Source: an uncultured Lachnospiraceae bacterium
GTDB taxonomy: Bacteria; Bacillota; Clostridia; Lachnospirales; Lachnospiraceae
Direction: 5' to 3'
DNA: 49,261 bases
Assembly (NCBI GenBank): GCA_902793845.1
Contig: CADBFE010000007.1
Coordinates: 1 to 49,261 of the forward strand
The notes below the pieces were generated by a model. The model saw nothing but the letters and a program-made list of their open reading frames with translations, had not been told where the DNA came from and searched no databases. The position numbers and the translations under genes were made by a program. This document shows positions 1,842-30,828 of the stretch, piece after piece; positions within the stretch are counted from its first letter, which is position 1, and each line of letters begins with the position of its first letter.

Positions 1842-2930
1842 ATGAAGATTGTACTTAAAAATCTCACAAAAGTTTTTGAGGGAAGACGTAAAAAAGATCC
1901 CGATGTAACTGCTGTGAATAATTTTAACTTTGAGATACCTGATGGAAAGCTTGTGGCACTCCTTGGCCCTTCGGGCTGCGGCAAGTCCACAACATTAAAT
2001 CTCATAAGCGGACTTGAGGAGCCTACAAGCGGACAGATATTTTTTGATGATGAGGACGTGACAAATGTACCTCCGGAAAACAGGGGTATCGGTCTCGTAT
2101 TTCAAAACTATGCTCTTTATCCCCATCTGACGGTACTTCAGAATATCATATTCCCCCTTCAGAATCTTAAGGGCGAAGAGAGACTGTCGATGGATGAGAT
2201 GAAGAGAAAAGCGAAAGATGTCGCAAAGCTCGTCCAGATAGAAGATCTCATGGACAGAAGACCCAAGGAACTCTCAGGCGGACAGCAGCAGAGAGTAGCC
2301 ATCGCGAGAGCGCTGATAAAAAATCCGAGAGTACTGCTTCTCGATGAGCCCCTGTCAAATCTTGATGCCAGATTAAGGTTAAGGACAAGGGAGGAAATAA
2401 GGCGTATCCAGAGAGAGACCGGCATAACGACTGTATTTGTAACTCATGACCAGGAAGAGGCCATGAGTATAGCAGACGAGCTCATCCTGATGGAAAACGG
2501 CGTGATAAATCAGATAGGCGCACCCCAGACCGTATACGATGAGCCGGCAAACCTCTTTGTCGCACAGTTCCTAGGCAATCCCAAGATAAATGTGCTCAGG
2601 GGATTTGTACAGAATGAAAAACTGATCATCCGTGATGAGGTATTTATGGAGATGAAAAATACTCCTGACAAAGACCTCTTTGTGGCTATCAGACCCGAGG
2701 GATTTGTGATCGATGAAAATGGTACGCTTACATGTAATGTCAGAAACATCGAGACAACAGGCCGCGATACAAGTATAGTGGCAACCCATGATGCAAGTCT
2801 TGAGGAGAACATCCGTGTCATCATCAGTTCCGATGAGGCCCGGGGCATAGAAAAGGGACCTATAAAGTTTTCATATAAAGAGAACAAGATGTTTTTGTTT
2901 GAACTTTCAGGGGAGAGGATTCTTTTATGA
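1842..2930 (+). CDS. Sugar ABC transporter ATPase (MsmK/UgpC/MalK-like)
   Basis: ATP-hydrolysing subunit of a CUT1-family carbohydrate importer, located on the cytoplasmic face of the membrane. Residues 1-235 form the ABC domain with Walker A GPSGCGKSTT, a Q-loop FQNYALYPHLTV, signature LSGGQQQR, Walker B VLLLDEPLSNLDA and H-loop VTHDQEEA. Residues 240-362 form the MalK/UgpC-type C-terminal regulatory (TOBE/OB-like) domain, including the IRPEGF segment. The stop overlaps the start of the downstream permease (ATGA), so this gene heads a four-gene operon. In related Gram-positives one such ATPase energises several sugar importers. It is the only ABC ATPase in the window, so it could also serve the incomplete system at 27-31 kb (inference). 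Confidence 0.93.
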   Translation: MKIVLKNLTKVFEGRRKKDPDVTAVNNFNFEIPDGKLVALLGPSGCGKSTTLNLISGLEEPTSGQIFFDDEDVTNVPPENRGIGLVFQNYALYPHLTVLQNIIFPLQNLKGEERLSMDEMKRKAKDVAKLVQIEDLMDRRPKELSGGQQQRVAIARALIKNPRVLLLDEPLSNLDARLRLRTREEIRRIQRETGITTVFVTHDQEEAMSIADELILMENGVINQIGAPQTVYDEPANLFVAQFLGNPKINVLRGFVQNEKLIIRDEVFMEMKNTPDKDLFVAIRPEGFVIDENGTLTCNVRNIETTGRDTSIVATHDASLEENIRVIISSDEARGIEKGPIKFSYKENKMFLFELSGERILL

Positions 2931-3829
2931 AGAAACGTATAAAGGCCGCAGATGTGAGAGGATGGCTGTTCCTTTTGCCGTCGCTTCTCTTTCTGGCTGC
3001 GTTTTTCATTTATCCCATGGTCGACGTACTCGTCTATTCGTTTGAGGAGCAGTTTAACTTTGCTTCACAGACATATACCGGCGTGGGATTTTACAATTTT
3101 AATTATGTACTTCACGATCCGTATTTTGTCCAGGCATTAAAAAATACGTTTATCCTGGTTATCATCACTGTGCCTGTATCCACATGCATAGCCATACTGA
3201 TAGCCAGATGCATATCGTCCATAAAAAAGCTGAGGGAATTTTACCAGACCATTTATTTCCTGCCTTATGTGACAAACACACTGGCACTTGGTCTCGTATT
3301 TATGATCCTCTTTAAAAAGACTGCATATTCGGACGGCATGATAAATCTGCTGATAAACGCATTTGGAGGTCAGAGCGTCGATTTCATAGACGGACCTTAC
3401 TGGGCCAAGATTCTCGTGATGAGTATATATACGATATGGGTAGTACTTCCGTTCAAGATACTGATACTGACCAGTGCCATGGCGTCGGTTAATGAGGATT
3501 ACTATAAGGCGGCAAAGATAGACGGTACATCATCGGCCAGAATATTCTTTAAGATAACACTGCCCATGATCTCGCCTATGATCTTTTATCTCGTCATCAC
3601 AGGATTTATCGGAGCGTTCAAGGCGTACAGTGATGAGGTCGCACTGTTTGGTACTGACCTTAACGGTGCAGGCATGAATACACTGGTAGGATACATATAC
3701 GACATGCTTTACGGTGACAGTGGAGGATATCCTTCGTATGCTTCCGCAGCTGCACTTATACTCTTTACCATTATATTTACTATCACCTGCATTAACTTAA
3801 CAGTCAGCAGGAAAAAGGCTGTTTACTAA
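2927..3829 (+). CDS. Sugar ABC transporter permease, MalF-like
   Basis: Integral membrane subunit of the CUT1 importer encoded with the preceding ATPase. About six transmembrane helices are visible, beginning with the hydrophobic stretch at residues 12-33. The cytoplasmic EAA-type loop that docks the ATPase is present near residues 190-215 (DYYKAAKIDGTSSARIFF, then ITLPMISP). Length (300 aa) and the N-terminal sequence GWLFLLPSLLFLAAFFIYP are typical of MalF/UgpA-type permeases. The start codon overlaps the ATPase stop codon, indicating translational coupling; a GGAGAGGA site lies just upstream. It presumably pairs with the MalG-like permease 18 bp downstream. The substrate cannot be told from the sequence. 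Confidence 0.92.
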   Translation: MKKRIKAADVRGWLFLLPSLLFLAAFFIYPMVDVLVYSFEEQFNFASQTYTGVGFYNFNYVLHDPYFVQALKNTFILVIITVPVSTCIAILIARCISSIKKLREFYQTIYFLPYVTNTLALGLVFMILFKKTAYSDGMINLLINAFGGQSVDFIDGPYWAKILVMSIYTIWVVLPFKILILTSAMASVNEDYYKAAKIDGTSSARIFFKITLPMISPMIFYLVITGFIGAFKAYSDEVALFGTDLNGAGMNTLVGYIYDMLYGDSGGYPSYASAAALILFTIIFTITCINLTVSRKKAVY

Positions 3830-3847
3830 AATCTCCGGGTACTTGAT

Positions 3848-4687
3848 ATGGGTAAAAATAAAATTGGAATCAAAAAAATATTAATATATCTGATACTGTC
3901 GATAGGCGCGGTTATAGTACTCTTTCCCTTTTACTGGATGATACTGACATCCGTCAAGGATTACAGCCAGTACAATGCAGAGTACATACCTAAGCTGTTT
4001 ACGGCTCATCCGACTCTCCAAAACTATGTGGATGCGTTTACCACGGTGAGCCTGGGCAGATACTGCGTAAATACTTTTGTATTTACAGCCATTACGACTA
4101 TCCTCATGATCGTCGTGACCACTCCTGCGGCTTTTGCCTTTTCGAGGATGAAATTTAAGGGCAGGAACCTGGTATTTGGTCTGTATCTCTCACTGATGAT
4201 GATACCAAACGAGCTGGTAGTCATCACAAACTATGTGACGATCACAAATATGGGCATGAGAAATACATTCTCCGGACTCATACTGCCGTCTGTCACATCG
4301 GTATTTTATATTTATCTCCTTAAGGAAAATTTTGAGACTGTGCCGGAGAATCTCTACCGGGCAGCCAAGGTAGACGGTACATCAGATTTCAAATATCTGA
4401 CCAGGGTACTGGTGCCTATATGTCGTCCTACGGTTGTGACTATCATAATCCTAAAGATAATAGAGTGCTGGAATCTCTATGTATGGCCGAGACTTATCAC
4501 AGACGACTCCAAATATTTCCTGGTATCAAACGGTATCCAGGAGATCAGGGAAAACGGATTCGGACGTGAAAATATACCTGCCATGATGGCTGCCGTTGCA
4601 GCAATCTCCGTACCGCTCCTCCTGCTCTTCCTGTATTTCAGAAAGACGATAATGGAGGGTGTCATAAGAGGAGGCACAAAAGGATGA
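3848..4687 (+). CDS. Sugar ABC transporter permease, MalG-like
   Basis: Second membrane subunit of the same importer, of the MalG/UgpE type. Six transmembrane helices are apparent, the first at about residues 10-30 followed by the typical PFYWMILTSVKD. The EAA loop reads NLYRAAKVDGTSDFKYLTRVLVPICRP, with the conserved Gly and the terminal V/L-P. The protein ends with a short cytoplasmic tail GVIRGGTKG resembling the family's usual GxxxGAVKG ending. It begins 18 bp after the MalF-like gene with a weak ribosome site, and its end overlaps the start of the binding-protein gene by 4 bp, so all four genes behave as one transcription unit. Confidence 0.92.
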   Translation: MGKNKIGIKKILIYLILSIGAVIVLFPFYWMILTSVKDYSQYNAEYIPKLFTAHPTLQNYVDAFTTVSLGRYCVNTFVFTAITTILMIVVTTPAAFAFSRMKFKGRNLVFGLYLSLMMIPNELVVITNYVTITNMGMRNTFSGLILPSVTSVFYIYLLKENFETVPENLYRAAKVDGTSDFKYLTRVLVPICRPTVVTIIILKIIECWNLYVWPRLITDDSKYFLVSNGIQEIRENGFGRENIPAMMAAVAAISVPLLLLFLYFRKTIMEGVIRGGTKG

Positions 4688-6273
4688 GAAGAAAAGGAAC
4701 GATTCTTTTATATATTGTCCTGGTTGTAATGATGCTCACCGGATGCCACGGCAGAAAAGCCGGAGAAGATTTTGTCATGCCTGATTCGTTTGATGAATCA
4801 AAGCATATCGAGATTACCTTCTGGGCTAAAAATGATACAAATAAATCTCAGACCCAGATTTATCAGGATGCTATAGACGGGTTTGAAAAACTGTATCCCA
4901 ATGTCCATGTAAATATCAGACTGTACACGGATTACGGCAAAATCTATAATGACGTGATCACAAATATATCAACAGGTACGACGCCCAATGTATGTATCAC
5001 ATATCCGGATCATATCGCTACATATATTACAGGCAACAATACGGTAGTACCTCTTGATGAGATATTTGATGATCCGAAGTACGGACTCGGAGGCAGTGAG
5101 GTAAAGTTTGACTCCCCTTCAAAGGATGAGATAGTACCTAAGTTTCTCGAGGAGTGCAAAATCGGTGATTCATATTATGCAGTGCCTTACATGCGCTCTT
5201 CGGAGGCATGCTATATAAACAAGACATACGTGGAAAAACTCGGATATGAAGTACCTGATGTACTTACATGGGATTTTGTATATGAAGTATCAAAAGCTGC
5301 TCTTGAAAAAGACGATGATGGCAACTACATTGTTAACGGTCAGAAGGTAATGATACCGTTTATATATAAATCAACGGATAATATGATGATACAGATGATA
5401 AAGCAAGCCGGAGGTGAATATTCCGACGATAACGGCAATATACTTCTGTTTAACGATAAAACCAAGGAACTGCTCTTTACAATAAGTGATATCGTTAAAG
5501 ATGGAGGCTTTTCTACATTTAAGATATCCGGATACCCGGCAAACTTTTTAAATGCAGGTCAGTGTATATTTGCAATCGACTCTACGGCCGGAGCTACATG
5601 GATGGGATCGGATGCTCCCCTTGCAGACATTGATGAGGATGCATTTGTGGAGTTTGAGACTGCCGTAAGGCCTGTACCCCAGTTTGATACGCAGGATCCC
5701 AAAATGATCTCTCAGGGACCGTCGATCTGCATCTTTAATAAACCTGACAGCCAGGAGGTACTGGCGTCGTGGCTGTTTGCTGAGTATCTGCTCACAAATG
5801 AGATACAGACAGCATATGCCATGACGGAAGGATATATACCGGTCACAACAAAGGCCCAGGAAACATCAGTATATATTGACTATCTCTCAAAAGAGGGCAT
5901 GGACAACAAGATGTACTACTCTGTAAAGATACAGGCATCGAAGCTGATACTTGATAATGTCAATAATACTTTTGTCACACCTGTATTTAACGGATCGACA
6001 TCGTTAAGAGATGCAGCGGGAGCCCTTGTGGAAAATGTCACCAAATCGACCAGAAGAGGTGAGACGATTGATCAGGCATACATGGATAAGCTCTACAGCG
6101 ATATCATCAGTCTCTACAGACTGGACAGCCTGGGCGAGACGTCAGTGAGACAGGAGTTTGGAAAGATGCCTGCGGCATCAAAGCTGCTCATCGCAGTACT
6201 CTGCCTTGTATGGGGCGCGCTGATCTCGGGCTTTACACATGTAATGATGAAAAAGAGCAGGGACGAAAAATAG
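4684..6273 (+). CDS. Sugar-binding lipoprotein of ABC transporter with C-terminal membrane anchor
   Basis: Extracellular solute-binding protein (family 1 type) that would deliver an oligosaccharide to the two permeases encoded just upstream. A lipoprotein signal ends in LTGC with Cys21 as the lipidation site. The mature part starts with the family's IEITFWAKND and continues through DGFEKLYPNVHVN. An unusual feature is a second hydrophobic segment at about residues 501-522, followed by the positively charged end KKSRDEK. This predicts a C-terminal transmembrane helix with its tail in the cytosol, so the protein would be held at both ends. At 529 residues it is longer than the usual 420-450. 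Translation is coupled to the upstream permease by an ATGA overlap. Confidence 0.9.
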   Translation: MRRKGTILLYIVLVVMMLTGCHGRKAGEDFVMPDSFDESKHIEITFWAKNDTNKSQTQIYQDAIDGFEKLYPNVHVNIRLYTDYGKIYNDVITNISTGTTPNVCITYPDHIATYITGNNTVVPLDEIFDDPKYGLGGSEVKFDSPSKDEIVPKFLEECKIGDSYYAVPYMRSSEACYINKTYVEKLGYEVPDVLTWDFVYEVSKAALEKDDDGNYIVNGQKVMIPFIYKSTDNMMIQMIKQAGGEYSDDNGNILLFNDKTKELLFTISDIVKDGGFSTFKISGYPANFLNAGQCIFAIDSTAGATWMGSDAPLADIDEDAFVEFETAVRPVPQFDTQDPKMISQGPSICIFNKPDSQEVLASWLFAEYLLTNEIQTAYAMTEGYIPVTTKAQETSVYIDYLSKEGMDNKMYYSVKIQASKLILDNVNNTFVTPVFNGSTSLRDAAGALVENVTKSTRRGETIDQAYMDKLYSDIISLYRLDSLGETSVRQEFGKMPAASKLLIAVLCLVWGALISGFTHVMMKKSRDEK

Positions 6274-6429: not shown

Positions 6430-7212
6430 ATGAAAAAGAAGTTAGCATTCGCATTAATGCTCAGTGTGGCTCTTGCAATGACAGCATGTGGACAGAACGA
6501 GACAGCAGAGGCAGACAATAATACTGAGGCAGAGACAGTACTCAACCAGGCTGATACAGAAAAGTCAGAAGGCGTAATGACATATGAAGAGTATATGGCA
6601 GCAGACCTTGAGACACAGGTAACTGTAGAGACTTATGTACAGGCTAAACAGGGCTGGTGGGAAAATGACGGAGTAGGTATGGCTACATTCTATACACAGG
6701 ATGCAGACGGAGCTTATTTCCTCTACAATATGCCCTGCTCTCAGGAAGAGTATGACAAACTTGTGATCGGTACAAAGATCAAGGTTACAGGATACAAGTC
6801 AGAGTGGGAAGGCGAAGTTGAGATCATCGATTCAACATTTGAGATCGAGGAAGGCGGATTTGAGGCATCAGCAGTTGATGTAACAGACAAGCTCGGAACA
6901 GATGATATCATCAATTACCAGAACCAGCTCGTATCATTTAAGGATATGACTGTTGAGGCTGCAAATGACGACGGCGATGCATTTATGTACAACTGGGACG
7001 GATCAGGTTCAGACGGTGATGACCTTTACTTTAACGTATCCGTAAACGGCGAGACATATACATTTACTGTTGAGTCATACCTTACAGGTGCAGGCTCAGA
7101 AGTATACGAGGCTGTAAAGGCTCTTAACGTAGGTGATACAGTAGACCTCACAGGATTCCTTTACTGGTATCAGGGAGTAAATCCTCACATCACATCAGTA
7201 GCAGTTAAATAA
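6430..7212 (+). CDS. Lipoprotein with OB-fold-like domain
   Basis: Predicted surface lipoprotein with a signal peptide ending in MTAC (Cys20), followed by an acidic, low-complexity linker to about residue 45. The rest contains two regions resembling OB-fold beta-barrels. The first runs about residues 60-140, with VTVETYVQ, then FYTQDADGAYFLYN, then IGTKIKVTGYKSEW. The second runs about 150-260, ending in LNVGDTVDLTGFLYWYQGVNPHITSV. Such repeated 'avoid cost of a step then GTKIKVTG' patterns occur in Clostridia lipoproteins with OB domains, and no enzymatic residues are recognisable. It has its own promoter and a strong GGAGGAG site, so it is likely expressed separately from the transporter upstream. 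Exact function unknown. Confidence 0.75.
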   Translation: MKKKLAFALMLSVALAMTACGQNETAEADNNTEAETVLNQADTEKSEGVMTYEEYMAADLETQVTVETYVQAKQGWWENDGVGMATFYTQDADGAYFLYNMPCSQEEYDKLVIGTKIKVTGYKSEWEGEVEIIDSTFEIEEGGFEASAVDVTDKLGTDDIINYQNQLVSFKDMTVEAANDDGDAFMYNWDGSGSDGDDLYFNVSVNGETYTFTVESYLTGAGSEVYEAVKALNVGDTVDLTGFLYWYQGVNPHITSVAVK

Positions 7213-8465: not shown

Positions 8466-8492
8466 CGGAAGCCTTATTCTTTAATGCTTCCG
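8466..8492 (-). other. Hairpin overlapping the stop codon of the fusion gene
   Basis: CGGAAGC and GCTTCCG form a 7-bp stem around the stop codon of the acyltransferase/permease gene. No T run follows on the minus strand, so termination is doubtful; it may only protect the mRNA end. Confidence 0.35.
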
Positions 8493-11263
8493 AGGTTTAT
8501 CCTCGATATGATACCCGGTGAAAACAGGATATAAACCACGAGGGACGGGATGACTCCCACAAGTACCATGCAGTATAGAACAGGATCGGTGCCTGCATTA
8601 TATCCGGCAAAGTTGTTGATCACCAGAGCGATCGTCTTTTTCCTGACATCGAGGAGTACGAGTTTCTGGTAGATCGTATTGTTCCAGCTTAAGGTAAAGT
8701 TGAATATGAGCTGGAGCAGTATGGCAGGTCTGATGACAGGCAGGATGATTTTGTTAAATGTGATAAATTCATTGCAGCCGTCGATCCTGGCAGCCTCGAT
8801 GATCTGGGCCAGATTCATGGAATGGAGATACATTCTCATGAAATATACGCAGGACGGAATGGCGATGCCCACCATGATGATGGGGAAGTAATGGTTGTGG
8901 AGGCGGAGGCTGAAAACAAGCTTTAAGTATCCTACGACTCCGGCGACTCCGGGTATAAGCATTGCTGCAAATACAGGTCCCCACAGTACGTTTCGCCCTT
9001 TAAACTTATAATACTCGAAACCGTATGCACAAAGGGTTCCGATATATGTACCCACAAAAGCGCATGTAACTGATATAAAGCATGACCGGAGTATGACGGC
9101 ATATATATTGTTGCTTATATAATCCATCTCCATTTTTACACTGACCAGGTTTTCGGCAAAGCTGCCACCGGGCAGCAGAGAAAAGCCTTTGATGATCTCC
9201 TGGGTAGTCTTTGTGGAGTTTATCACGAGGACGCTGATCGGGAAGAGTGCGATGATACAAAGGCATATGCATACCACATGTCTGAACAGTATTATCAGAG
9301 TCCGTTTCGGATGACGGTAGGTAAATGTAAGGCAGAGGCGTACATTTTTCTTTAATGAATCAAAACGTTTTTTTTGATCATCTTTTATTTCAGAAATTAT
9401 CTGCCTGAAACCTTTGCCTTTTGGAATCGGCTTTTTGCAGATAAGACATATGATAAGTGTATCGATCCTGTGGATGACCGCCGCAGATATGATCGATGAA
9501 ATGATTACAAGCGTAAAATATATACCCGTTCCCTTAAAGGATGAATAAAGGCCCATAAACAGGTTGTGGATGAGATAAAGCTCAAGGGAAATCTCTCCAA
9601 GGAACTTTAGAAATCTGTTGCCGATACGGAGCTTCATGCCGATAAGGAGCACGAGCAGTACAAAGAAAAGGACCATGGGACACTGGACTATAAGGCATCG
9701 CAGCTTGTCATCATATCCTTTATCCGTGCCAAATTCACTCCAGTAGCTGTATGTATTAAGGGCATATTCCGTCGCTTTGTTTAGTGCCACAAATATTATT
9801 GTCACAGCGATGAGGACAAGGCCGTAAAAATGTTTCATGAAATCAACAATATGTTCCCTGTGTTTTGAAAACAGCATTCCGAAGGGGAATATTAAGGAGG
9901 TGTTGTACCACCATTCGCCCTGAAACCATGATTCTCCGTGGCCAAGGTAAAGCGAATATCCAACCATACCGCCGGTAAATAAAAACATCAGTATCAGGGC
10001 GAGAGTCCTGTTTTTGATGAACCTGAAAAGCAGATAGAAAATGACATACAGGATAACGATCTCGACAATATACCACATGTGGGAATTGATGAGCTTCCAG
10101 CCGGTGAGCCATGATATGAACTGGCCGGCTTTTGGGAAACCTGCAGTAACTATGTGGTGTATCAGAAAGATAATGATCGTGCAGTAAAACGGCACAAGTA
10201 CAGGGGGCAGTCTCTTTGAAAAGAATTTTTTAAGATAATCAGGTTTGTTTTTAAAACTCTCATACAGACCGTACCCTGAGAAAAAGAAAAACATGCCGAC
10301 AAATCCAACGCCGAAGTTTTCAAGGATATAGAGAATGCCCGAATCATTGCGGTCAGCCTGCTGGACGAGGTGATGGAAAACGATAAGTACGGCAAAAAAA
10401 CCGAGGATCATTTTTGATGTTTTAAGTGATAAAAAGTCATCATTCCATCCGGTGCAGCCGTCTCCCATGTAATAGTATTTTTTAAGTTCGCTGTCATAAA
10501 GCCGCTCGCTCCTGCCCATATATGTGATGCCGCAGAGCAGAGCAAATATAAACGGGACGACGATGATCCACGGCGCAAATGTGAGAGTCTTTAATCTGGC
10601 TATCAGATAATTGCCCTCCTCACCTGTGTTAGCCGGTTTGCCAAAGGAATAATCGGAGAGAAGCTTCTCATATTTACCTGTGACATCGGCGATTGTGGAA
10701 TCAAAGTCCTTCTCGGTGCCGTCCTCCACGTAGCATCTGATCTCGAGGAAAACGCCGCCATGCTCCATGAAATATGATGCGGTTACGCAGTAATCGCTGA
10801 CAGCAGGGTATTTGGTGCTGTAGCATACCCGGTGAAATGTAATATCTCCGAGGGTGATATCATCATGAACAGTCTCTCTTGTTAGCTGGTATCCGAACTG
10901 GTAATTTTGGATACGGTCTTCGGTTGAGGAATAGGAAATCTCTGAAAAGTCAGGCAGTATGTAGAATTCCTGATAATAATGATAGTCTTCTGACAGGACG
11001 ACAAACAGAGCATCGTATTTTTTCATCTCCGATGCAACCTCCCGTCTGCTGGTATCCTGAAAGTATCTTAAATAATTCTTGGGGGATGCAACATTAAGGT
11101 CAAGTTGTTTGATATATGTTTCGGCACCGCTTCTGCCAAATTTGGTAAAGCCGAATTTGGATGTTTCTTCTCCTTTGTTTCCTATGGTGATATAGACGGC
11201 GAGTGCCATCAGAATGACCAGAGATATGACAATGGTCCTGCTCCATTTTACAAGAATCTTCAA
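8474..11263 (-). CDS. Acyltransferase-3 / ABC sugar permease fusion membrane protein
   Basis: A 929-residue membrane protein joining two families. It starts with one transmembrane helix (about 10-28), then a roughly 200-residue extracytoplasmic domain of unknown type and a second helix near 232-250. Residues about 283-603 are an acyltransferase-3 domain, which acylates extracytoplasmic glycans using cytoplasmic acyl donors: VLIVFHHL, then FFFFSGYGLYESF, KKFFSKRLPPVLVPFY, and the terminal SLELYLIHN. A charged cytoplasmic linker (610-655) leads into a MalG-like permease (about 656-929). The permease has an intact ATPase-docking EAA loop, IIEAARIDGCNEFITF followed by IILPVIRP. The start is TTG: the one at 11263 lies 9 bases after GGGGG, while TTG 11269 lies only 3 after. 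It is transcribed alone, opposite to the HD-domain gene. Its cognate partner permease is not adjacent. Confidence 0.85.
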   Translation of the reverse strand: MKILVKWSRTIVISLVILMALAVYITIGNKGEETSKFGFTKFGRSGAETYIKQLDLNVASPKNYLRYFQDTSRREVASEMKKYDALFVVLSEDYHYYQEFYILPDFSEISYSSTEDRIQNYQFGYQLTRETVHDDITLGDITFHRVCYSTKYPAVSDYCVTASYFMEHGGVFLEIRCYVEDGTEKDFDSTIADVTGKYEKLLSDYSFGKPANTGEEGNYLIARLKTLTFAPWIIVVPFIFALLCGITYMGRSERLYDSELKKYYYMGDGCTGWNDDFLSLKTSKMILGFFAVLIVFHHLVQQADRNDSGILYILENFGVGFVGMFFFFSGYGLYESFKNKPDYLKKFFSKRLPPVLVPFYCTIIIFLIHHIVTAGFPKAGQFISWLTGWKLINSHMWYIVEIVILYVIFYLLFRFIKNRTLALILMFLFTGGMVGYSLYLGHGESWFQGEWWYNTSLIFPFGMLFSKHREHIVDFMKHFYGLVLIAVTIIFVALNKATEYALNTYSYWSEFGTDKGYDDKLRCLIVQCPMVLFFVLLVLLIGMKLRIGNRFLKFLGEISLELYLIHNLFMGLYSSFKGTGIYFTLVIISSIISAAVIHRIDTLIICLICKKPIPKGKGFRQIISEIKDDQKKRFDSLKKNVRLCLTFTYRHPKRTLIILFRHVVCICLCIIALFPISVLVINSTKTTQEIIKGFSLLPGGSFAENLVSVKMEMDYISNNIYAVILRSCFISVTCAFVGTYIGTLCAYGFEYYKFKGRNVLWGPVFAAMLIPGVAGVVGYLKLVFSLRLHNHYFPIIMVGIAIPSCVYFMRMYLHSMNLAQIIEAARIDGCNEFITFNKIILPVIRPAILLQLIFNFTLSWNNTIYQKLVLLDVRKKTIALVINNFAGYNAGTDPVLYCMVLVGVIPSLVVYILFSPGIISRINLGSIKE

Positions 11264-11365
11264 AAGCAAAGTCCCCCTAAACCTGTTATCCTGATTACAA
11301 TTAAATCATATTTTGCGTAGTTTGAAAATGGACGCTTTTGGCCCGGATGAGACGGGTTAAAATTA

Positions 11366-18565: not shown

Positions 18566-19951
18566 ATGCAACGCAATTTTTTTACTTTAATAAAGAGAAT
18601 AGGAATCCCTGTCTTGATGGCCGTCCTGGTCATCGCTAGCCTCACGGGATGCGGCAACAGATTAAAGACGCTGCCCGCAGTATCCACGGATAATATCACT
18701 ACCCCCGTGGCAGGCAAAAACGGAGAGGAGTATATCTCCCCTGAGAATCAGGCTATCATCAGCGCAGTCAGCAGCTATGAAACAGTATTTGGAAACCTTG
18801 AGAGTATCAGCATCTATGACAGAAAGGATAATGTCAGGACAAAGGAAAATGCCACCATCTATGCAAAGGCAGTCACCAATCTGGCTTATGCCACATATAC
18901 ATATTACCTTAAGTGCGACATGCTCTATGACAGGGATGTAAAGGCATGGACCGTATCGGCAGTATCCTATGATGAGAACAATCCTTTTAATATGGATGTG
19001 ACCCTCACATATGATACGGATATTATTAAAGAAGATATCGTAGCCAATGAGTACTCGTTTTACTTTAGCGATGTCGAGACGTATGTAAAGCCCGACAGTA
19101 TAGATGAGGTGACGATAAACAGCATCTCATGCAATACGATAGATGAGTACAGGGCAGGCAGCTATTATGACATAACATTTACCTTAAAGGACGGATATTA
19201 TTATTACGACTGTGAAGGTAAAGTTACTTATATATATTACAGACCTGACTATTACGGCGAGGAGTGCATCAATTACTACGGATGCGAGGCGACATTAACG
19301 AGCAGATATGTGGACCCGGATACAAAGGTGAGACTGTCCGATTCATCGATGCTCCAGGATCTCCTCGACTATGGATATGAGATAGGCAGTGATGATTACA
19401 AATCCCTGATCGTATCGGACCTCATCGATTCATATACATTTGATGAGCCTGTTTATACGGATACGGACTGTACGAGGCATATGTCCCTGGTGCTCGGTGC
19501 CACAGAGGGTGTCATGATGAATTATGATATCGAGTACAGGTATGTCTACAGTGACGGTGCATGGTCGATCGATTATATAAATGCGTACAGGGCAGAGGAG
19601 AGCTACACCATCACAGAGGACTTTTACGGTAATTATGAGGGACCTGTGGTAGTCGGCGAAGAGGAGGTCGGCATCATCAAGATCGCCATAGAGGATTACG
19701 ATCCGGAGGAAAATAAATTTACCGGATATGTCCAGTACACCAAAGATAATGATTTCTCCACGGCGGAGGTCGTATCGTTTACCGGCAAGTATGTAGGCTA
19801 TGACTGGCAGGTATCCCTTGATTTTGAAAAGAAGATCACGTTTTCGGGGTACATCGGTAAAAAGACGATATCTCTGTATATAGATCCCAATGACGGTATA
19901 TTAAAGACAGAGACAAAAGACTCGGCCAGTATAGATGTCTGGAAACAGTAA
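18566..19951 (+). CDS. Lipoprotein of unknown function, tandem paralogue 1
   Basis: Predicted surface lipoprotein with a long signal region ending in LTGC (Cys29). Just after the cysteine the motif GNRLKTLPAVSTDN closely matches the downstream paralogue (GNPLKSLPEVGSDN). The mature protein is rich in Tyr, Asp and Thr and shows predicted beta-structure. A repeated pattern of the type SISIYDRKDN (about 80) also appears in the paralogue as EVTVYDRKDD. The C-terminal part, with YGNYEGPVV, then IAIEDYD and GYVQYT, resembles a lipocalin- or calycin-like barrel (inference). No known enzyme domain is recognised. A GGGTGA site precedes the ATG and the gene has its own promoter. Confidence 0.7.
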   Translation: MQRNFFTLIKRIGIPVLMAVLVIASLTGCGNRLKTLPAVSTDNITTPVAGKNGEEYISPENQAIISAVSSYETVFGNLESISIYDRKDNVRTKENATIYAKAVTNLAYATYTYYLKCDMLYDRDVKAWTVSAVSYDENNPFNMDVTLTYDTDIIKEDIVANEYSFYFSDVETYVKPDSIDEVTINSISCNTIDEYRAGSYYDITFTLKDGYYYYDCEGKVTYIYYRPDYYGEECINYYGCEATLTSRYVDPDTKVRLSDSSMLQDLLDYGYEIGSDDYKSLIVSDLIDSYTFDEPVYTDTDCTRHMSLVLGATEGVMMNYDIEYRYVYSDGAWSIDYINAYRAEESYTITEDFYGNYEGPVVVGEEEVGIIKIAIEDYDPEENKFTGYVQYTKDNDFSTAEVVSFTGKYVGYDWQVSLDFEKKITFSGYIGKKTISLYIDPNDGILKTETKDSASIDVWKQ

Positions 19952-19989: not shown

Positions 19990-20052
19990 TAACAATTGAT
20001 CGGGAAACCGGTCAGGGAGAAAATGGGATATTTTGAAAAAAGGAGAAAAAAG

Positions 20053-21423
20053 ATGAAGAAAAAGTTGATGGTGGCTTTGGCAGCTGTCATGGCTGCATGT
20101 GCACTCACAGCATGCGGAAACCCTCTTAAGTCACTTCCTGAAGTAGGCAGCGACAACCTGGTTGATCTCGTTGATGAGAATGAGGACAAGAACCAGGCTG
20201 CAGCAGCTATCCTCAAGAAGATCAAGAAGGATGACCTTGCTATCGGTGATGTTGAGGAAGTAACTGTTTATGACAGAAAGGATGATGAGGACGGCAAGGA
20301 AAAGTCTGATGTCTATGTACAGATCACATCCGAGTCAGATATGGCTTCATATACAACATATTATGTGTTTACCATGAAGTATGACAGCGATTCAAAAGAC
20401 TGGGAAGTAAAGAAGTACGAAGCAGATGATGATGAAGATATCGAGGTTGAGTTTACATCAGGTATGGACGATGAGGACATCCTCGATGATATCATCAACA
20501 AGGAATATTCAATCTATGTGGAAGATGAGGAAGGCAATTACTACTACCTCTATCCTACAACAGACACTGTAAGCGACTTTACAGTATCAGAGCCTGATAT
20601 AACAGTTGATTCATCAGAGCACCTTCTCATCGACTATGATGTGACAATGACTATCACTTCAGGAATGTACTTCTACTCTGTAGAGGGTACAGTTGAGTAC
20701 TCATTCTGGATTGACGGCGGATCAGAGGACCTTTACTTTAACTATGGTGATTACAGCCTCGTGAGCAGAGAGATCGATCCTGAGATCGGTGATACATTCT
20801 CAGAGGAAGCAATGCTTACAGATTTTGATTCATGTGAATTTGCAATCGGAGATAAGGTTGTGTCATCTGCTGATTTCGCAAGCTACTCATTCAGGGATAT
20901 CTATTTCGGAACAGATTATGCATATGATTACATTGATTATACCCTTGAGGTTATTGATGGTGTTCAGCTTGAGTATTGTGCATACCTTTACTATGATTAT
21001 GACGGAAGCTCATACTCTCTTGATAAGTACTCTTGCTACAATTCCTACAACTATGAGACAACATATACAGACGATGTGCTCGGTACATGGTCAGGTGCTT
21101 ATATAGAAAGTTATTATAATGATGACGGAAAGAAGATAGCGACAATAGATTTGGTAATCGAAGATTACAGCAACAATCAGGGATATATCTACGGTACAGC
21201 AACTATTACAGAGATTGAGTCGGGAGAGACAACTGAGGAGAGTTTTGAAGGATATTATTCTTCAAGCGGATATCTTTATATTAGTTTTGATGACACAGTG
21301 TATATTTACTTTGATAATCAGAAGCATTACGAGTATTTATATTCAATGTATCTGTATCCTCAGAACGACGGAAGCCTCGAATATGAGGGATCATATGAGT
21401 CTTGCACATTTACAAGACAATAA
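20053..21423 (+). CDS. Lipoprotein of unknown function, tandem paralogue 2
   Basis: A 456-residue lipoprotein, signal ending in LTAC (Cys21), paralogous to the gene just upstream: both share the GN-x-LK-x-LP start, a VYDRKDD segment and a Tyr/Asp-rich beta-structured body. The C-terminal domain (about 340-456, LGTWSGAYI, then IDLVIEDYS and YIYGTATI, then SFEGYYSS) follows the same order as in paralogue 1. Most likely the pair arose by tandem duplication and then diverged. The ATG at 20053 with AGGAG 7 bases upstream is preferred to the TTG at 19996, which lies just downstream of the -10 box. The protein is very acidic, and a terminator follows the gene. Confidence 0.72.
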   Translation: MKKKLMVALAAVMAACALTACGNPLKSLPEVGSDNLVDLVDENEDKNQAAAAILKKIKKDDLAIGDVEEVTVYDRKDDEDGKEKSDVYVQITSESDMASYTTYYVFTMKYDSDSKDWEVKKYEADDDEDIEVEFTSGMDDEDILDDIINKEYSIYVEDEEGNYYYLYPTTDTVSDFTVSEPDITVDSSEHLLIDYDVTMTITSGMYFYSVEGTVEYSFWIDGGSEDLYFNYGDYSLVSREIDPEIGDTFSEEAMLTDFDSCEFAIGDKVVSSADFASYSFRDIYFGTDYAYDYIDYTLEVIDGVQLEYCAYLYYDYDGSSYSLDKYSCYNSYNYETTYTDDVLGTWSGAYIESYYNDDGKKIATIDLVIEDYSNNQGYIYGTATITEIESGETTEESFEGYYSSSGYLYISFDDTVYIYFDNQKHYEYLYSMYLYPQNDGSLEYEGSYESCTFTRQ

Positions 21424-25013: not shown

Positions 25014-27122
25014 ATGCAGTTTTCAGTTAATTACGGCATGGGAAGCAACAAAAATTACATAACAGGAATGAAGCCGCTCCTTAAAAAGAAGGCACTTTAC
25101 TCGGATACCACATCAAATTATGTATCGCCCATGGAACCGTCTCCGTATGGTATAGTGACCATCAAATTCCGTACTGCAAAGAATAATGCGGACAAGGTAC
25201 TACTCGTATCCGAGGGCAAGAGCCATTACATGGAGATAGTGGAGTCAAATGAGCTGTTTGATTATTATTCCCATGATATACAGCTTGAGGATAAGATATT
25301 CTCCTACCATTTTGAGGTATATTCGGGCAATATGATGAACTGCTACGATGTCAGGGGAGTTTCAAGAGAGCCGATGGATGATTACAATTTCGTGATCATC
25401 CCCGGATTTAAGACACCGGACTGGGCTAAGGGCGCCGTCATGTACCAGATATATGTGGACAGGTTCTTTAACGGCGACAAAACAAATGATGTGGAATCAA
25501 GGGAATACAGCTATATAGGAGACTACACCTCAAGGGTTGATGACTGGAATAAATATCCGGCGGTAATGGGCGTGAGGGAATTTTACGGCGGTGACCTGCA
25601 GGGTGTGATAGACAAGATGGACTATCTTGAGGAGCTCGGTATCGAGGTCATATATTTCAATCCTCTTTTTGTCTCTCCCTCAAATCATAAATATGACATA
25701 CAGGACTATGACAATATAGATCCCCATTTCGGAAAGATAGTATCGGACGGCGGCGAGGTGCTCCCCGAGGGAGACATGGAAAACCGCCATGCCACAAAAT
25801 ATATTAAGAGAGTGACTGATAAAGCAAATCTGGACGCGTCCAACGAACTGTTTGCAAAGGTTGTGGAGGAAGCTCATAAGAGAGGTATCAAAGTGATCCT
25901 TGACGGAGTGTTCAACCACTGCGGCTCGTTTAATAAATGGCTGGACAGAGAACGCATATATGAAGACGCCGAGGGCTATGAAAAAGGCGCCTATATAACG
26001 GGAGACAGCCCGTACAGAAATTATTTTAAGTTTTATGATGAATCAAAATGGCCATACAACCATACATACGACGGATGGTGGGGCCATGATACACTGCCGA
26101 AACTCAACTATGAGGCATCACAGGATCTTTACAATTACATCCTGAATATAGGCAGAAAATGGGTATCGCCTCCGTACAATGCAGACGGATGGCGCCTTGA
26201 CGTGGCTGCGGACCTCGGTCATTCACCGGAATTCAATCATAAGTTCTGGCGTGATTTCAGACAGGCCGTAAAGCAGGCCAATCCTAACGCACTCATACTC
26301 GCCGAGCATTACGGAGATCCAAAGAGTTGGCTCATGGGAGACCAGTGGGATTCCGTCATGAACTACGATGCATTTATGGAGCCTGTCACATGGTTTTTGA
26401 CCGGAATGCAGAAGCACAGCGACGATTTCAGAAATGACCAGCTTAACAATGCTGCAAGCTTCTGGGGGGCAATGAAGCATCATAATGCGAGATTTGCCAT
26501 GCCGTCTATGATGGTAGCCATGAACGAGCTGTCAAATCACGATCACTCAAGATTCCTGACGAGGACAAACAGGCGCATAGGCCGTGTTAACAATCTCGGT
26601 CCGGAGGCTGCCAATGAAGGCGTGAGCATACCGGTAATGAGGGAGGCTGTGCTGCTCCAGATGACATGGATCGGTGCTCCTACCGTATATTACGGAGATG
26701 AAGCCGGAGTGTGCGGATTTACCGATCCCGATAACAGAAGGACATACCCCTGGGGTAATGAAAATAAAGAACTGATCGAATTCCATAAGAAGATGATCTC
26801 CATAAGGAAGAGATGCAGTGAATTTAAGACCGGATCGATCAAGTATGTCGGTGAGGATTTCGGATATATAGCATACGGAAGATTTAACAGTGACGGACAG
26901 AGTCTGATACTCATCAACAATTCAGATGAATCGATCTCAAAGGATATAACGGTATGGACATTGGGCATACCTAAGGATGCGACGATGACAAGGCTCATGA
27001 TGACCGATGATTACGGCTTTGATGATACTCCCATAGAGTACAAGCTGGATGCCGGTCACATTAATGTAATTCTACCCAAGCATAGCGGAATGGTACTGAG
27101 GCATGAGGGTACGTTATTATAA
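25014..27122 (+). CDS. GH13 alpha-amylase family enzyme, neopullulanase/cyclomaltodextrinase-like
   Basis: Cytoplasmic alpha-glucan hydrolase acting on imported malto-oligosaccharides, pullulan fragments or cyclodextrins. An N-terminal beta-sandwich (about 40-130, CBM34-like) precedes the TIM barrel, which starts at WAKGAVMYQIYVDRFFNGD. Conserved regions are DGVFNH (about 297), the nucleophile D396 in GWRLDVAAD, the acid/base E431 in LILAEHYGD, and the transition-state D510 in NELSNHDHSRFL. A C-terminal beta domain completes the 702 residues. No signal peptide is present. The ATG has AGGAGA 6 bases upstream. The gene begins 10 bp after degV and probably belongs to the same transcript. Confidence 0.92.
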   Translation: MQFSVNYGMGSNKNYITGMKPLLKKKALYSDTTSNYVSPMEPSPYGIVTIKFRTAKNNADKVLLVSEGKSHYMEIVESNELFDYYSHDIQLEDKIFSYHFEVYSGNMMNCYDVRGVSREPMDDYNFVIIPGFKTPDWAKGAVMYQIYVDRFFNGDKTNDVESREYSYIGDYTSRVDDWNKYPAVMGVREFYGGDLQGVIDKMDYLEELGIEVIYFNPLFVSPSNHKYDIQDYDNIDPHFGKIVSDGGEVLPEGDMENRHATKYIKRVTDKANLDASNELFAKVVEEAHKRGIKVILDGVFNHCGSFNKWLDRERIYEDAEGYEKGAYITGDSPYRNYFKFYDESKWPYNHTYDGWWGHDTLPKLNYEASQDLYNYILNIGRKWVSPPYNADGWRLDVAADLGHSPEFNHKFWRDFRQAVKQANPNALILAEHYGDPKSWLMGDQWDSVMNYDAFMEPVTWFLTGMQKHSDDFRNDQLNNAASFWGAMKHHNARFAMPSMMVAMNELSNHDHSRFLTRTNRRIGRVNNLGPEAANEGVSIPVMREAVLLQMTWIGAPTVYYGDEAGVCGFTDPDNRRTYPWGNENKELIEFHKKMISIRKRCSEFKTGSIKYVGEDFGYIAYGRFNSDGQSLILINNSDESISKDITVWTLGIPKDATMTRLMMTDDYGFDDTPIEYKLDAGHINVILPKHSGMVLRHEGTLL

Positions 27123-27331: not shown

Positions 27332-28807
27332 ATGAAAAAGAGATTATTAGCTCTTACAGTAGCAATGATCATGGCTGCATCTACACTTGTAGCATGTGGC
27401 GGAGAGACAACACCTGATGCAAACGCTAACACAGATGGCGCAGCAACAGATGACGGCGCAGCAACAGATGATGGCGCAACAGGAGACGGAGACGCAGCAG
27501 CAGAGCCTGTTGAGGAAGATTTCGCAGCAACAGAAGTAACAGCTAAGCTTGAGTGCCCTGACACATCAGCTTGGACAGACGCTGACAAGATCTACTTCTA
27601 CTCTTGGAACGATGAGTTCGGTTCAAGAATGCAGTACGTTCTTGATGCTTATCCTGAGCTTACAGATTACGTTGAGTACGTAAACCTTGGTGTTTCCGGA
27701 ACAGACGGAACATACCAGACAGCTATCGATACACTTATCGAGAACAACGATGAGAAGTTCCCTTCAATCATCGCAGCTGATAACGATGTAGCTAAGTACT
27801 ACACAGAGTCTGATATGACACTTCCTCTTTCAGAGATCGGTATCACAGATGAGATGTATGCAAACGCTTACAACTTCTCTAAGCAGTATGCTACATACAA
27901 CGGAGAGCTCAAGGCTCTTACATGGCAGGCTTGCCCGGGATGTTTCGTATACAGAACTGACATCGCTGAGGAAGTTCTTGGATCATCTGATCCCGCTGAC
28001 GTACAGGAGCACGTAAAGGACTGGGATGCATTCATGGAGACAGCTCAGACAATGAAGGATGCTGGTTACGCTATGGTAGCTGGTCCTGACGAGATCAAGT
28101 ATGCTTGCTTCGATCAGCAGACACAGCCTTGGATCACAGTAGCTGATGACGGAACAGAGACACTTACACTTGACTCTTCTGTAACAGACTTCTTCGAGCT
28201 TTCTAAGGAACTCTTCGATGGCGAGTACACAAACAACGCTTCTATGTGGGATGCTGCATGGAACGCTGGATACGAAGGAGATGTATTCGGATACTTCGGA
28301 TGTACATGGTCAGTATACTGGTGTATGGCATTTGATGATACTCTTGGCGAGGATTCATCAAAGGGTAAGTGGCACATCTGTGAGGGTCCTGTTGGATATC
28401 ACTGGGGTGGTACATACTGCATGGTTATGGACGGATGCCCTAACACAGAGCTCGCTGCATTCCTTGTATACTCACTTTGCTGCGATGAAGACGTTCTGTA
28501 CACACTTGCAAAAGATACAGGTGACTTCGTAAACAACAAGGCAGTTATCGAGAAGCTTATCGCTAACGACGAGGGTGGTCTTCCTGCAAGAGAGATTCTT
28601 GGCGGACAGGATCCTTTCGTAATCTGGGCTGAGTCTGTAAAGAACATCAACCTTTCAAATGCTTGCTACCTTGACGCTCCTCTTAAGGACATCATCACAA
28701 AGGCTGCTCAGGCATACAACGCTGGCGAAGTTGCTGACGTAGACGCTGCTCTTCAGTATGTAAAGGATGAAGTAGCTAAGACATATGATTACGTTGTAAT
28801 CGAGTAA
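27332..28807 (+). CDS. Extracellular sugar-binding lipoprotein of second ABC transporter
   Basis: Solute-binding protein (family 1) exported as a lipoprotein: the signal ends in LVAC with Cys22. A low-complexity Ala/Asp/Thr/Gly linker (about 27-58) follows, then the ligand-binding domain, starting near DKIYFYSWNDEFGSRM. That opening and the WD-rich middle resemble Lachnospiraceae oligosaccharide-binding proteins. Codon use is strongly biased to GCT, CTT, AAC, TAC and TTC and differs from the surrounding genes, which suggests very high expression. It has its own promoter and a 5' hairpin. A second stem-loop after the stop separates it from the permease genes. The substrate cannot be assigned. 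Confidence 0.9.
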   Translation: MKKRLLALTVAMIMAASTLVACGGETTPDANANTDGAATDDGAATDDGATGDGDAAAEPVEEDFAATEVTAKLECPDTSAWTDADKIYFYSWNDEFGSRMQYVLDAYPELTDYVEYVNLGVSGTDGTYQTAIDTLIENNDEKFPSIIAADNDVAKYYTESDMTLPLSEIGITDEMYANAYNFSKQYATYNGELKALTWQACPGCFVYRTDIAEEVLGSSDPADVQEHVKDWDAFMETAQTMKDAGYAMVAGPDEIKYACFDQQTQPWITVADDGTETLTLDSSVTDFFELSKELFDGEYTNNASMWDAAWNAGYEGDVFGYFGCTWSVYWCMAFDDTLGEDSSKGKWHICEGPVGYHWGGTYCMVMDGCPNTELAAFLVYSLCCDEDVLYTLAKDTGDFVNNKAVIEKLIANDEGGLPAREILGGQDPFVIWAESVKNINLSNACYLDAPLKDIITKAAQAYNAGEVADVDAALQYVKDEVAKTYDYVVIE

Positions 28808-28911: not shown

Positions 28912-28980
28912 AAAAATACCTTTTATGTTTCCAAGGGTATTAATTATCAAAACTATAAATAAGATATGGGGAGTGATGTC

Positions 28981-29928
28981 TTGAAAAACGAAACAAAAAA
29001 CAAAACAGTCGAATATGGAAGATACGGTTACATTTTCCTTGCACCGTTCTTCGTAATTTTCCTTATTTTCCAGTTCTTTCCGCTTGTTTACACATTCGGA
29101 AGCGCATTTGTACAGACCGTTAAAAAAGGTCGTAACGCTGTAGAGACCGTTGTCGGACTCGGAAACTTTTCATCATATGTATTTGTAAAAGGTTCAGAAG
29201 TCTGGTCTTCAATCGGTATCACAATTTGCTTATGGTTATTGAACTTTATCCCTCAGATTCTCCTTTCGCTGTTACTGGCTGCATGGTTTACAGATATCCA
29301 GTGCAAGCTTAAGGGTCAGGGTGCATATAAAGTTATCATGTATATGCCCAACATTATCACAGCCGCTTCAATCGCGTTCCTTTTCAACGCATTGTTCCAG
29401 GTTCAGGGTACAATCACACTTCTCTTAAAGAGAATGGGAGTTCCTATTCCTTCAAACGGTGTGCTTGACCACGGTTGGACTTCACTTTTCATCATTGCTT
29501 TCATCCAGTTCTGGATGTGGTACGGCAACACGATGATCGTGCTTATCGCAGGTATCATGGGTATCAGCCCTTCACTTTACGAGGCTGCCATGGTTGACGG
29601 TGCATCTTCAAGACAGCAGTTCTTTAAGATCACAGTACCTCTTCTTAAACCAATCCTTCAGTTTACAATGGTTACATCATGTATCGGTGGTCTTCAGATG
29701 TATGATATACCTCAGCTTTTCAACGCCGGAGGTCCGGTTGTTAATTACAAGGGCCAGCAGCTCAACTCTACTACTACAATCGTTATGACGATCAAGAAGT
29801 ACGTTGAGTCAGGTGCAGGTCAGAACGTAGGTCGTGCTTCGGCTTATTCAGTAGTGCTGTTCGTTATCACCCTCGCTGTAAGTATGGTATTCTACATACT
29901 TACATCAGAGAAAAAAGAGAAGAGATAA
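28981..29928 (+). CDS. Sugar ABC transporter permease, MalF-like (second system)
   Basis: Membrane subunit with about six transmembrane helices, the first at about residues 14-40 (YIFLAPFFVIFLIFQFFPLVY pattern shared with MalF types). The EAA loop is YEAAMVDGASSRQQFFKITVPLLKP. Compared with the permease at 2927 it is slightly longer and only similar in pattern, so this is an independent transporter. The TTG at 28981 with GGGAG 7 bases upstream is preferred to the ATG at 28966, which lacks a ribosome site. The next gene follows after 15 bp. Codon use is intermediate between the binding protein and the rest. Confidence 0.9.
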   Translation: MKNETKNKTVEYGRYGYIFLAPFFVIFLIFQFFPLVYTFGSAFVQTVKKGRNAVETVVGLGNFSSYVFVKGSEVWSSIGITICLWLLNFIPQILLSLLLAAWFTDIQCKLKGQGAYKVIMYMPNIITAASIAFLFNALFQVQGTITLLLKRMGVPIPSNGVLDHGWTSLFIIAFIQFWMWYGNTMIVLIAGIMGISPSLYEAAMVDGASSRQQFFKITVPLLKPILQFTMVTSCIGGLQMYDIPQLFNAGGPVVNYKGQQLNSTTTIVMTIKKYVESGAGQNVGRASAYSVVLFVITLAVSMVFYILTSEKKEKR

Positions 29929-29943
29929 GGAGGAGTTACACAA

Positions 29944-30828
29944 ATGAGTCAGATGCAGATAAATATGACACAGGACAAGAAGAAGGTTAAACTCACAGCT
30001 CCTTTCAGATATGTGATTTGTATATTACTTTGCTTCTTAAGTATATTCCCGTTTTATATGATGATTATAAACGGTACATTGACAAACAGTGAGGTTCAGG
30101 TAGCAAAGTATTTCCTGCCTAAGAGCCATTGGTTTGAAAACTTCAAGGGATTGCAGATCTGGTGCCAGAATGCACAGATCATCTCAATCTGGAAGGCAAT
30201 GCTCAACTCACTCATCATCACAGTGCCAGCAACAATCCTTCAGGTTTACTTTGCAGCACTTACAGCATACGCTGTAACAGTTTACAACTTCAGATTCAGA
30301 AATGCAGCATGGGCATTCATCTATGGTATCATGATGATCCCTATGCAGGTTTCAATCATCGGATTTATCAAGGTATGTAACCTTACACATATGTATGGAA
30401 CAATGTGGCCCCTCATCATTCCGGCTATGGCTGCTCCTACAACAGTTTACTTCATGAAGCAGTACATGGAGGCAGGCTTCTCAGTAGAAATCGTTGATGC
30501 TGCTCGTATCGATGGTTCAGGAGAGTTCAATACATTCAATACTATTGCACTTCCTCTCCTTAAGCCCGCTATGGCTACACAGGCAATCTTCGGATTCGTT
30601 GGTTCATGGAACAACCTTTACACACCTTCACTTATCCTTGCTACCAAGAAGAAAGAGCTCGGTACTCTTCCTCTTTACATCGAGGCTATCAAGTCAAACG
30701 ATAAGCAGAGAGACTGGGGTCAGATCTACGTAGCACTTACAATCGCGGTTATGCCTATCCTTATCGCATACCTCGTACTTTCAAAATATATCGTTGCCGG
30801 TGTTGCACTCGGTGGCGTTAAGGAATGA
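29944..30828 (+). CDS. Sugar ABC transporter permease, MalG-like (second system)
   Basis: Partner of the preceding permease. Six transmembrane segments are apparent, opening with YVICILLCFLSIFPFYMMIINGT. The ATPase-docking loop reads VEIVDAARIDGSGEFNTFNTIALPLLKP, and the tail GVALGGVKE is typical of MalG-like subunits. A strong GGAGGAG site lies 8 bases before the ATG. No ATP-binding subunit gene accompanies the two permeases. In related bacteria an unlinked MsmK-type ATPase serves such systems, and the one at 1842 is a good candidate (inference). The acyltransferase-fused permease at 8474-11263 has a similar docking loop (EAARIDG). Confidence 0.9.
   Translation: MSQMQINMTQDKKKVKLTAPFRYVICILLCFLSIFPFYMMIINGTLTNSEVQVAKYFLPKSHWFENFKGLQIWCQNAQIISIWKAMLNSLIITVPATILQVYFAALTAYAVTVYNFRFRNAAWAFIYGIMMIPMQVSIIGFIKVCNLTHMYGTMWPLIIPAMAAPTTVYFMKQYMEAGFSVEIVDAARIDGSGEFNTFNTIALPLLKPAMATQAIFGFVGSWNNLYTPSLILATKKKELGTLPLYIEAIKSNDKQRDWGQIYVALTIAVMPILIAYLVLSKYIVAGVALGGVKE

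Follow-up and report, generated by a model that had tools for sequence, protein, structure and literature searches.

A 49,261-nucleotide contig of an uncultured Lachnospiraceae bacterium (CADBFE010000007.1 of assembly GCA_902793845.1; hereafter the window) encodes a protein in which a membrane-anchored extracytoplasmic domain, a ten-helix acyltransferase-3 (AT3) domain and a MalG-type ATP-binding cassette (ABC) permease follow one another in a single frame. This fusion is a real, rare and conserved architecture. Its ancestry, its co-occurrence with one type of MalF and the conservation of its EAA loop are best fitted by a reading in which the protein would be an alternative MalG subunit that assembles with an importer's MalF and a shared MsmK/MalK-type ATPase, carrying an acyltransferase on the importer, although we place this reading somewhat short of probable.

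The fusion gene and its distribution

Minus-strand positions 8474-11269 form a single stop-free frame of 931 amino acids counted from its first TTG, the codon from which residues are numbered throughout. Relatives in an alignment of 18 mostly begin at the third codon, and a likely ribosome binding site, read directly, precedes the TTG at 11263; the start is therefore most likely TTG 11263, giving 929 codons. The continuous frame at 8474-11263 described by the first-pass annotation was confirmed, with an end coordinate that matches this TTG, and the FHH and FSGYGLY motifs and the intact EAA loop (EAARIDG...ILP) that it listed were all found in the protein. The profile search that it proposed placed both PF01757 and PF00528 above cut-off. 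The gene stands isolated, the preceding gene (11394, HD domain) lying on the opposite strand. Its features are as follows.

8474..11263, minus strand: AT3-MalG fusion gene, 929 aa from TTG 11263 (931 aa from TTG 11269); frame, Pfam, alignment
11273..11278, minus strand: AGGGGG (11278-11273), likely ribosome binding site, 9 bases before TTG 11263
10595..11182, minus strand: extracytoplasmic domain (residues 30-225 of 931) flanked by a membrane helix on either side; model fold PsbP-like, weak Foldseek match
9437..10426, minus strand: AT3 domain, ten helices, model residues 280-609; PF01757, model, residue columns
9311..9436, minus strand: Lys/Arg-rich linker between AT3 and permease, residues about 612-653, predicted cytoplasmic; entropy, Lys/Arg count
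8477..9310, minus strand: MalG-type (CUT1) ABC permease domain, residues about 654-931; PF00528, SugABC and MalG structural matches
8720..8815, minus strand: EAA (ATPase docking) loop, residues 819-850; residue conservation, entropy

A scan of genome contigs yielded 45 loci, 19 of which (L028-L045 and L047) hold the full order at 33-96% identity, counting L043 and L045, which end at a contig edge inside the permease. The carriers are gut and rumen bacteria. In a junction alignment of the window protein and 18 loci, with the near copy L028 left out, the AT3-permease junction lies in one frame in 19/19 rows, and the same is true of L028. Three of the 19 loci come from records without a metagenome-assembled genome (MAG) label, namely AB2028, NC2008 and Eubacterium sp. 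MSJ-21. The ratio of nonsynonymous to synonymous substitution rates (dN/dS) is below 0.13 in every domain, and 0.04-0.10 in the permease domain, in the five pairs that gave a usable dS; L036/L040 showed saturation. The fusion is present in 11/35 genomes of the window's genus, including one (G027) in which the gene is split over two contigs, but in only 4/397 genomes of a draw from across the Lachnospiraceae (E up to 1e-110, two candidates scored per genome; G233 in this draw lacks the 5' part of the gene), and is therefore rare and patchy.

An assembly join or an accidental read-through of two genes, the concern raised by the first-pass annotation, finds some encouragement in relatives of each half that also occur as separate genes. 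It is ruled out by the uninterrupted order in 19 further loci from other assemblies, three of them not labelled MAG, together with the low dN/dS of each domain in the five usable pairs, and we assign it a vanishingly small probability. The earlier statement that no protein with this order had been described also held, as no description of an AT3-permease fusion was found in the open-licence literature; the available part of PMC6045613 contains both Pfam accessions, but assigns PF01757 to a separate gene.

An AlphaFold2 model of the fusion from a 32-row input (mean pLDDT 81.1, pTM 0.64) gives separate domains in the order helix, beta-rich domain, second helix, ten AT3 helices, charged linker and permease domain. 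With loops assigned from this model, the Lys/Arg share is 0.20 in inside loops versus 0.10 in outside loops, and the EAA loop and linker are therefore predicted to lie inside and the N-terminal domain outside. Mean entropy across the linker (residues 613-655) is 2.08 bits, with invariant columns at 0/43; L043 and L045 were excluded from all entropies. The N-terminal domain resembles PsbP (2xb3) in a weak Foldseek match (TMt 0.66, E 5.8e-3), whereas no Pfam family scored above cut-off for it and the best solved structure found with its profile reached an E value of only 1.2.

Permease half and the maltodextrin-type importer

The permease half is matched by PF00528 at residues 740-915 (E 2.9e-9, 37.4 bits versus a cut-off of 26.4), and its fold by subunit 8hps_B of LpqY-SugABC (Foldseek E 7.5e-7) and by MalG (3puv_G, E 6.7e-6). 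Scores fell under the cut-offs of the NCBIfam MalG, UgpE and GlcU equivalogs. A tree of 61 MalG domains groups all 20 fused rows into one clade (support 100/100), which is sister (97/91) to 20 standalone MalGs, including the one encoded in the window at 29944-30828; L028, L043 and L045 are absent from this tree, and the L074 row repeats the L040 gene. The branch leading to the fused clade is long, at 1.25 changes per column, and distant rows are very long-branched, which makes the deep placement less certain than the fused clade itself. A C-terminal -KE is found in 19/20 fused and 19/19 sister rows versus 0/9 nearer-outgroup rows.

Within the fused clade, the EAA loop is strongly conserved: E825, G831 and P844 occur in 20/20 rows, A826 in 18/20 and A827 in 19/20. 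Its entropy of 0.90 bits is the lowest of the permease stretches compared (whole domain, 1.34 bits), which makes coupling to an ABC ATPase credible. A MalG-like permease with an intact docking loop, as first described, is borne out by the profile, the fold matches and these residues. Of 99 positions that the sister MalGs conserve, an average of 59% is retained in fused domains, versus 80% in the nearer outgroup and 35% in distant CUT1 permeases; a separate first count, with 43/76 positions kept, is in agreement.

The sister MalG belongs to an importer whose maltodextrin-type label is deduced from an adjoining GH13 enzyme. The relevant genes are listed below.

25014..27122, plus strand: GH13 enzyme, maltodextrin glucosidase-like, adjoins the importer; family search
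27332..28807, plus strand: the importer's sugar-binding protein, matching cellobiose-binding protein 8bfy at E 5.3e-11
28966..29928, plus strand: MalF-type permease, proposed partner in trans; co-occurrence with the fusion
29944..30828, plus strand: standalone MalG, in the clade sister to the fused domains; tree

The binding protein is without a Pfam match despite its likeness to 8bfy. The first-pass annotation was right that no MalF adjoins the fusion, yet the window does encode one, at 28966-29928, and this type of MalF tracks the fusion. Within the genus, MalF at a minimum of 59% identity occurs in 10/11 fusion genomes versus 1/24 others (Fisher p 6e-7, a value that ignores shared descent), and among the 25 genomes at least 90% complete it occurs in 7/7 with the fusion versus 1/18 without. 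When the fusion label is mapped on an rpoB tree of 28/35 genus genomes, at least four changes are required, so a single shared ancestor does not give the co-occurrence pattern. All nine fusion genomes on that tree have the importer's MalF type, and G001 is the only genome there with the MalF but no fusion. An rpoB match was obtained in 31 genomes; G004, G008 and G023 were dropped as partial, leaving 28 on the tree. Two fusion genomes, G005 and G021, lacked an rpoB match, and G022 is long-branched. The family draw has the importer's MalF type in 15/397 genomes, including all four with the fusion. Taken over 22 distinct fusion genomes, six entries having been judged repeats by identical match coordinates, this MalF type (at least 55% identity) is present in 19.

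A dedicated orphan MalF was rejected as the partner, since 5/5 MalF relatives in G002 and G003 (E up to 1e-30) have a PF00528 neighbour; in this check single PF00528 matches were unclassified, and two matches in the window's genome (G000) were short frames of 114 and 138 aa.

The MsmK-type ATPase previously assigned to the window was not borne out, as the ATPase gene at 1842-2930 sits with other permeases and a binding protein (2927-6273). The sole OB_MalK (PF17912) match of the window's genome is on another contig and is partial, in a 295-aa frame. One such match each was found in G000, G002 and G003, by a search that would miss ATPases without that domain, and a single match per genome fits a shared ATPase of the MsmX/MsmK kind; according to the available part of PMC7658222, such multitask ATPases serve several importers.

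Acyltransferase half and relatives with other modules

PF01757 matches residues 290-600 (E 5.3e-27, 95.2 bits versus a cut-off of 31). Residues F328, F329, S331 and G332, R353, G464, S561 and Y565 are each present in 19/19 fusions, and were matched by sequence to the published FFxxSG motif, the Arg of transmembrane helix 3 (TMH3), the TMH6 Gly and the TMH9 SxxxY motif (reference motifs from the parts of PMC7448272 and PMC12423673 available). The TMH1 His pair is likewise present in 19/19. Positions 288 and 289, the site of the TMH1 Arg, are hydrophobic in 19/19, all of which have K or R at 286 and the spacing K-x12-HH. If R353 is taken as the first Arg of the TMH3 RxxR motif, the second is absent, with Arg at position 356 in 0/19 and Lys in 2/19. 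The AT3 domain may still bind acyl-CoA. Pfam gave no SGNH match in the fusion protein at E up to 0.001.

Related AT3 cores also occur with a second AT3 module in tandem, at L048-L053, L055, L056, L062, L067 and L072 (Clostridiales) and at L078 in a Lachnospiraceae genome. Of these tandem cores, 10/11 fall in one clade with the fusions (97/90), and K-x12-HH is shared in 11/11. Like the fusion, the tandem proteins have an N-terminal domain outside the membrane. Compared for homology, the two sets of N-terminal domains gave an hhalign probability of 37 (P 3.6e-4). Where the fusion has a permease, however, they have a second AT3 with DxxRx10H (11/11), and Pfam recognized two AT3 stretches in 4/4 tandem proteins scanned (L051, L052, L055, L062). 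In 14 Clostridiales hosts of tandem-type loci, MalF relatives reach at best 41-46% identity, a level that taxonomy alone could explain.

Some loci also carry a separate partner AT3 gene. The partners beside fusions and tandem proteins form one clade (100/96), with that of L035 long-branched, and K/R-x12-H spacing is found in 16/16 of them; L005 and the second AT3s of tandem proteins were excluded from this AT3 tree. In 6/19 fusion loci an XRE-type regulator and such a standalone AT3 gene lie directly before the fusion:

L035:6345-8050, L036:6312-8020, L038:6255-8029, L039:6345-8050, L040:6324-8038, L047:1876-3680: XRE-type regulator and AT3 gene; regulator family matched for L035, the six forming one cluster

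A search for the partner AT3 in 18 genomes (E up to 1e-30) yielded no such gene in the window's genome, where the fusion itself was the sole match. No gene family common to the fusion neighbourhoods was found that would name a substrate or acceptor.

Several further observations accompany this survey. K/R-x12-H replaces R/K-x10-H across the AT3 subfamily of these Clostridia, in fused, tandem-core, partner and most solo forms (L028-L072), whereas the canonical motif is present in the second AT3 of the tandem proteins. The 1418-aa tandem protein at L052:4694-8950 (plus strand) has, by eye, three successive copies of the extracytoplasmic domain ahead of its core, and at L069:6938-8824 (plus strand) a related AT3 is fused to DUF6273 (PF19789), another C-terminal partner. 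In one lineage, two genes immediately precede the AT3 gene (L043:577-2026, L045:5448-6993, L060:4465-6013); by eye we take them to be an HD-domain protein and a patatin-like phospholipase. Elsewhere in the window, adjoining paralogues of 461 and 475 aa at 18566-19951 and 19996-21423, which fall in one cluster, and a 260-aa protein at 6430-7212 whose start looks lipoprotein-like by eye, are without Pfam matches.

Possible roles and comparison with known systems

In the favoured reading, the C-terminal half would take the place of MalG in a heterodimer with the MalF of the maltodextrin-type importer, and the EAA loop and C-terminal tail would dock a shared MsmK/MalK-type ATPase, with the same sugar-binding protein serving the fusion-containing complex. 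A subset of importer complexes would thereby bear an AT3 enzyme with an outward-opening active site. Drawing on acyl-CoA from the cytoplasm, the AT3 half would acylate an outer-face glycan, either a cell-envelope glycan or the sugar ligand, and acylation could be placed at, or gated by, sugar uptake. In its full form, with a second version of the importer in which AT3-MalG replaces MalG and one complex runs both ATP-driven uptake and acylation of outer glycans, we consider this model rather unlikely.

Several observations weigh against an alternative MalG. Fusion and importer lie 18 kb apart in the window, and fusion and MalF are on different contigs in the nine other genus genomes having both. 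No MalF reaching 55% identity accompanies the fusion in three genomes (G021, 72% complete, G432 and G436). The relation is one-sided, as 11/15 MalF genomes in the family draw showed no fusion, and a MalG of its own adjoins MalF in 25/25 fetched loci with such a MalF, so that MalF does not need the fusion. The share of conserved MalG positions retained by fused domains falls furthest below that of the nearer outgroup in transmembrane helix 3 (TM3, 0.38 versus 0.71), TM5 (0.51 versus 0.93), the TM5-6 loop (0.25 versus 0.69) and TM6 (0.59 versus 0.95); docking of the ATPase seems preserved, and the path through the membrane changed. In the enzyme half, the canonical TMH1 R/K-x10-H is absent from 19/19 fusions. 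Finally, L058 and L060 are nested in the fusion clade and have an AT3 without permease and N-terminal domain, and their hosts retain MalF (55-68%). Loss of MalF from these hosts, as expected for strict MalF-permease dependence, was looked for and not seen.

Because tandem relatives swap the permease for another module and L058 and L060 lost it, AT3 seems to be the fixed element and the permease the interchangeable one. This pattern is the chief argument for a repurposed, non-transporting permease that holds or regulates AT3, for example by sensing the importer or its ATPase, in a protein that would be a cell-surface acyltransferase. A second AT3 in the permease's place in 10 Clostridiales loci and L078, the solo AT3s of L058 and L060, the altered helix positions and the own MalG of all five MalF relatives in G002 and G003 point the same way. 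A pure scaffold, however, would not need an EAA loop, which is the most constrained stretch here, with E825, G831 and P844 kept throughout, and co-occurrence with one MalF type goes unexplained unless the module senses that importer. We regard this explanation as quite possible and as close behind the alternative-MalG reading in plausibility.

The altered helices above a kept EAA loop are also what would be expected if the substrate had changed. An ATP-driven enzyme could result, in which the permease half, paired either with MalF or with itself as a homodimer, moves an acceptor glycan, a lipid-linked sugar or an acyl product to the AT3 active site, AT3 acting on the outer face according to the available part of PMC9558356; as a corollary, import machinery would be run for acylation instead of feeding. 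Against this, substrate moves inward through type I importers and AT3 works outside, two directions that are not easily reconciled, and the neighbourhoods share no gene family that names an acceptor. Both the enzyme and its corollary appear improbable to us. The channel for an acyl donor proposed by the first-pass annotation gained no specific support, AT3 proteins being described with an acyl-CoA pore of their own in the available part of PMC12423673. Its coupling of glycan acylation to import is a hypothesis supported in part: the kept EAA loop, the sister relation to the importer's MalG and the MalF type in 19/22 fusion genomes agree with a link to import, whereas the changed MalG helix positions, the non-canonical TMH1 motif and the second AT3 in place of the permease in relatives weigh against the coupling.

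The conserved joining of AT3 to a subunit of an ABC importer would point to a possible tie between membrane acylation and ATP-driven transport. It offers a ready test case, because candidates for the MalF, the binding protein and the ATPase can be named. That relatives have a second AT3 where the fusion has the permease also bears on a question posed in the accessible part of a review, whether AT3-only proteins need partners.

With CUT1 permeases of the MalG/SugB/UgpE type (8hps_B, 2r6g_G), the fusion shares the fold, EAA loop and C-terminal tail. It differs in being joined to an enzyme, in having no adjoining MalF, binding protein or ATPase, and, relative to standalone MalG, in changed TM3, TM5 and TM6 positions. 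With AT3 proteins of the OafA/OafB, OatA and OacB type it shares the ten-helix fold, TMH1 His, FFxxSG, TMH3 Arg, TMH6 Gly and SxxxY; unlike them, it has K-x12-HH, a PsbP-like N-terminal domain and a C-terminal ABC permease, and is without an SGNH domain. The AT3 fusion partners named in the parts of PMC9558356 and PMC12423673 available are SGNH, racemase and NRF. VanT resembles the fusion in that its AT3 membrane domain is followed by a partner at the C-terminus (PMC9558356, available part); in VanT that partner is a racemase, whereas in the fusion it is a transporter subunit.

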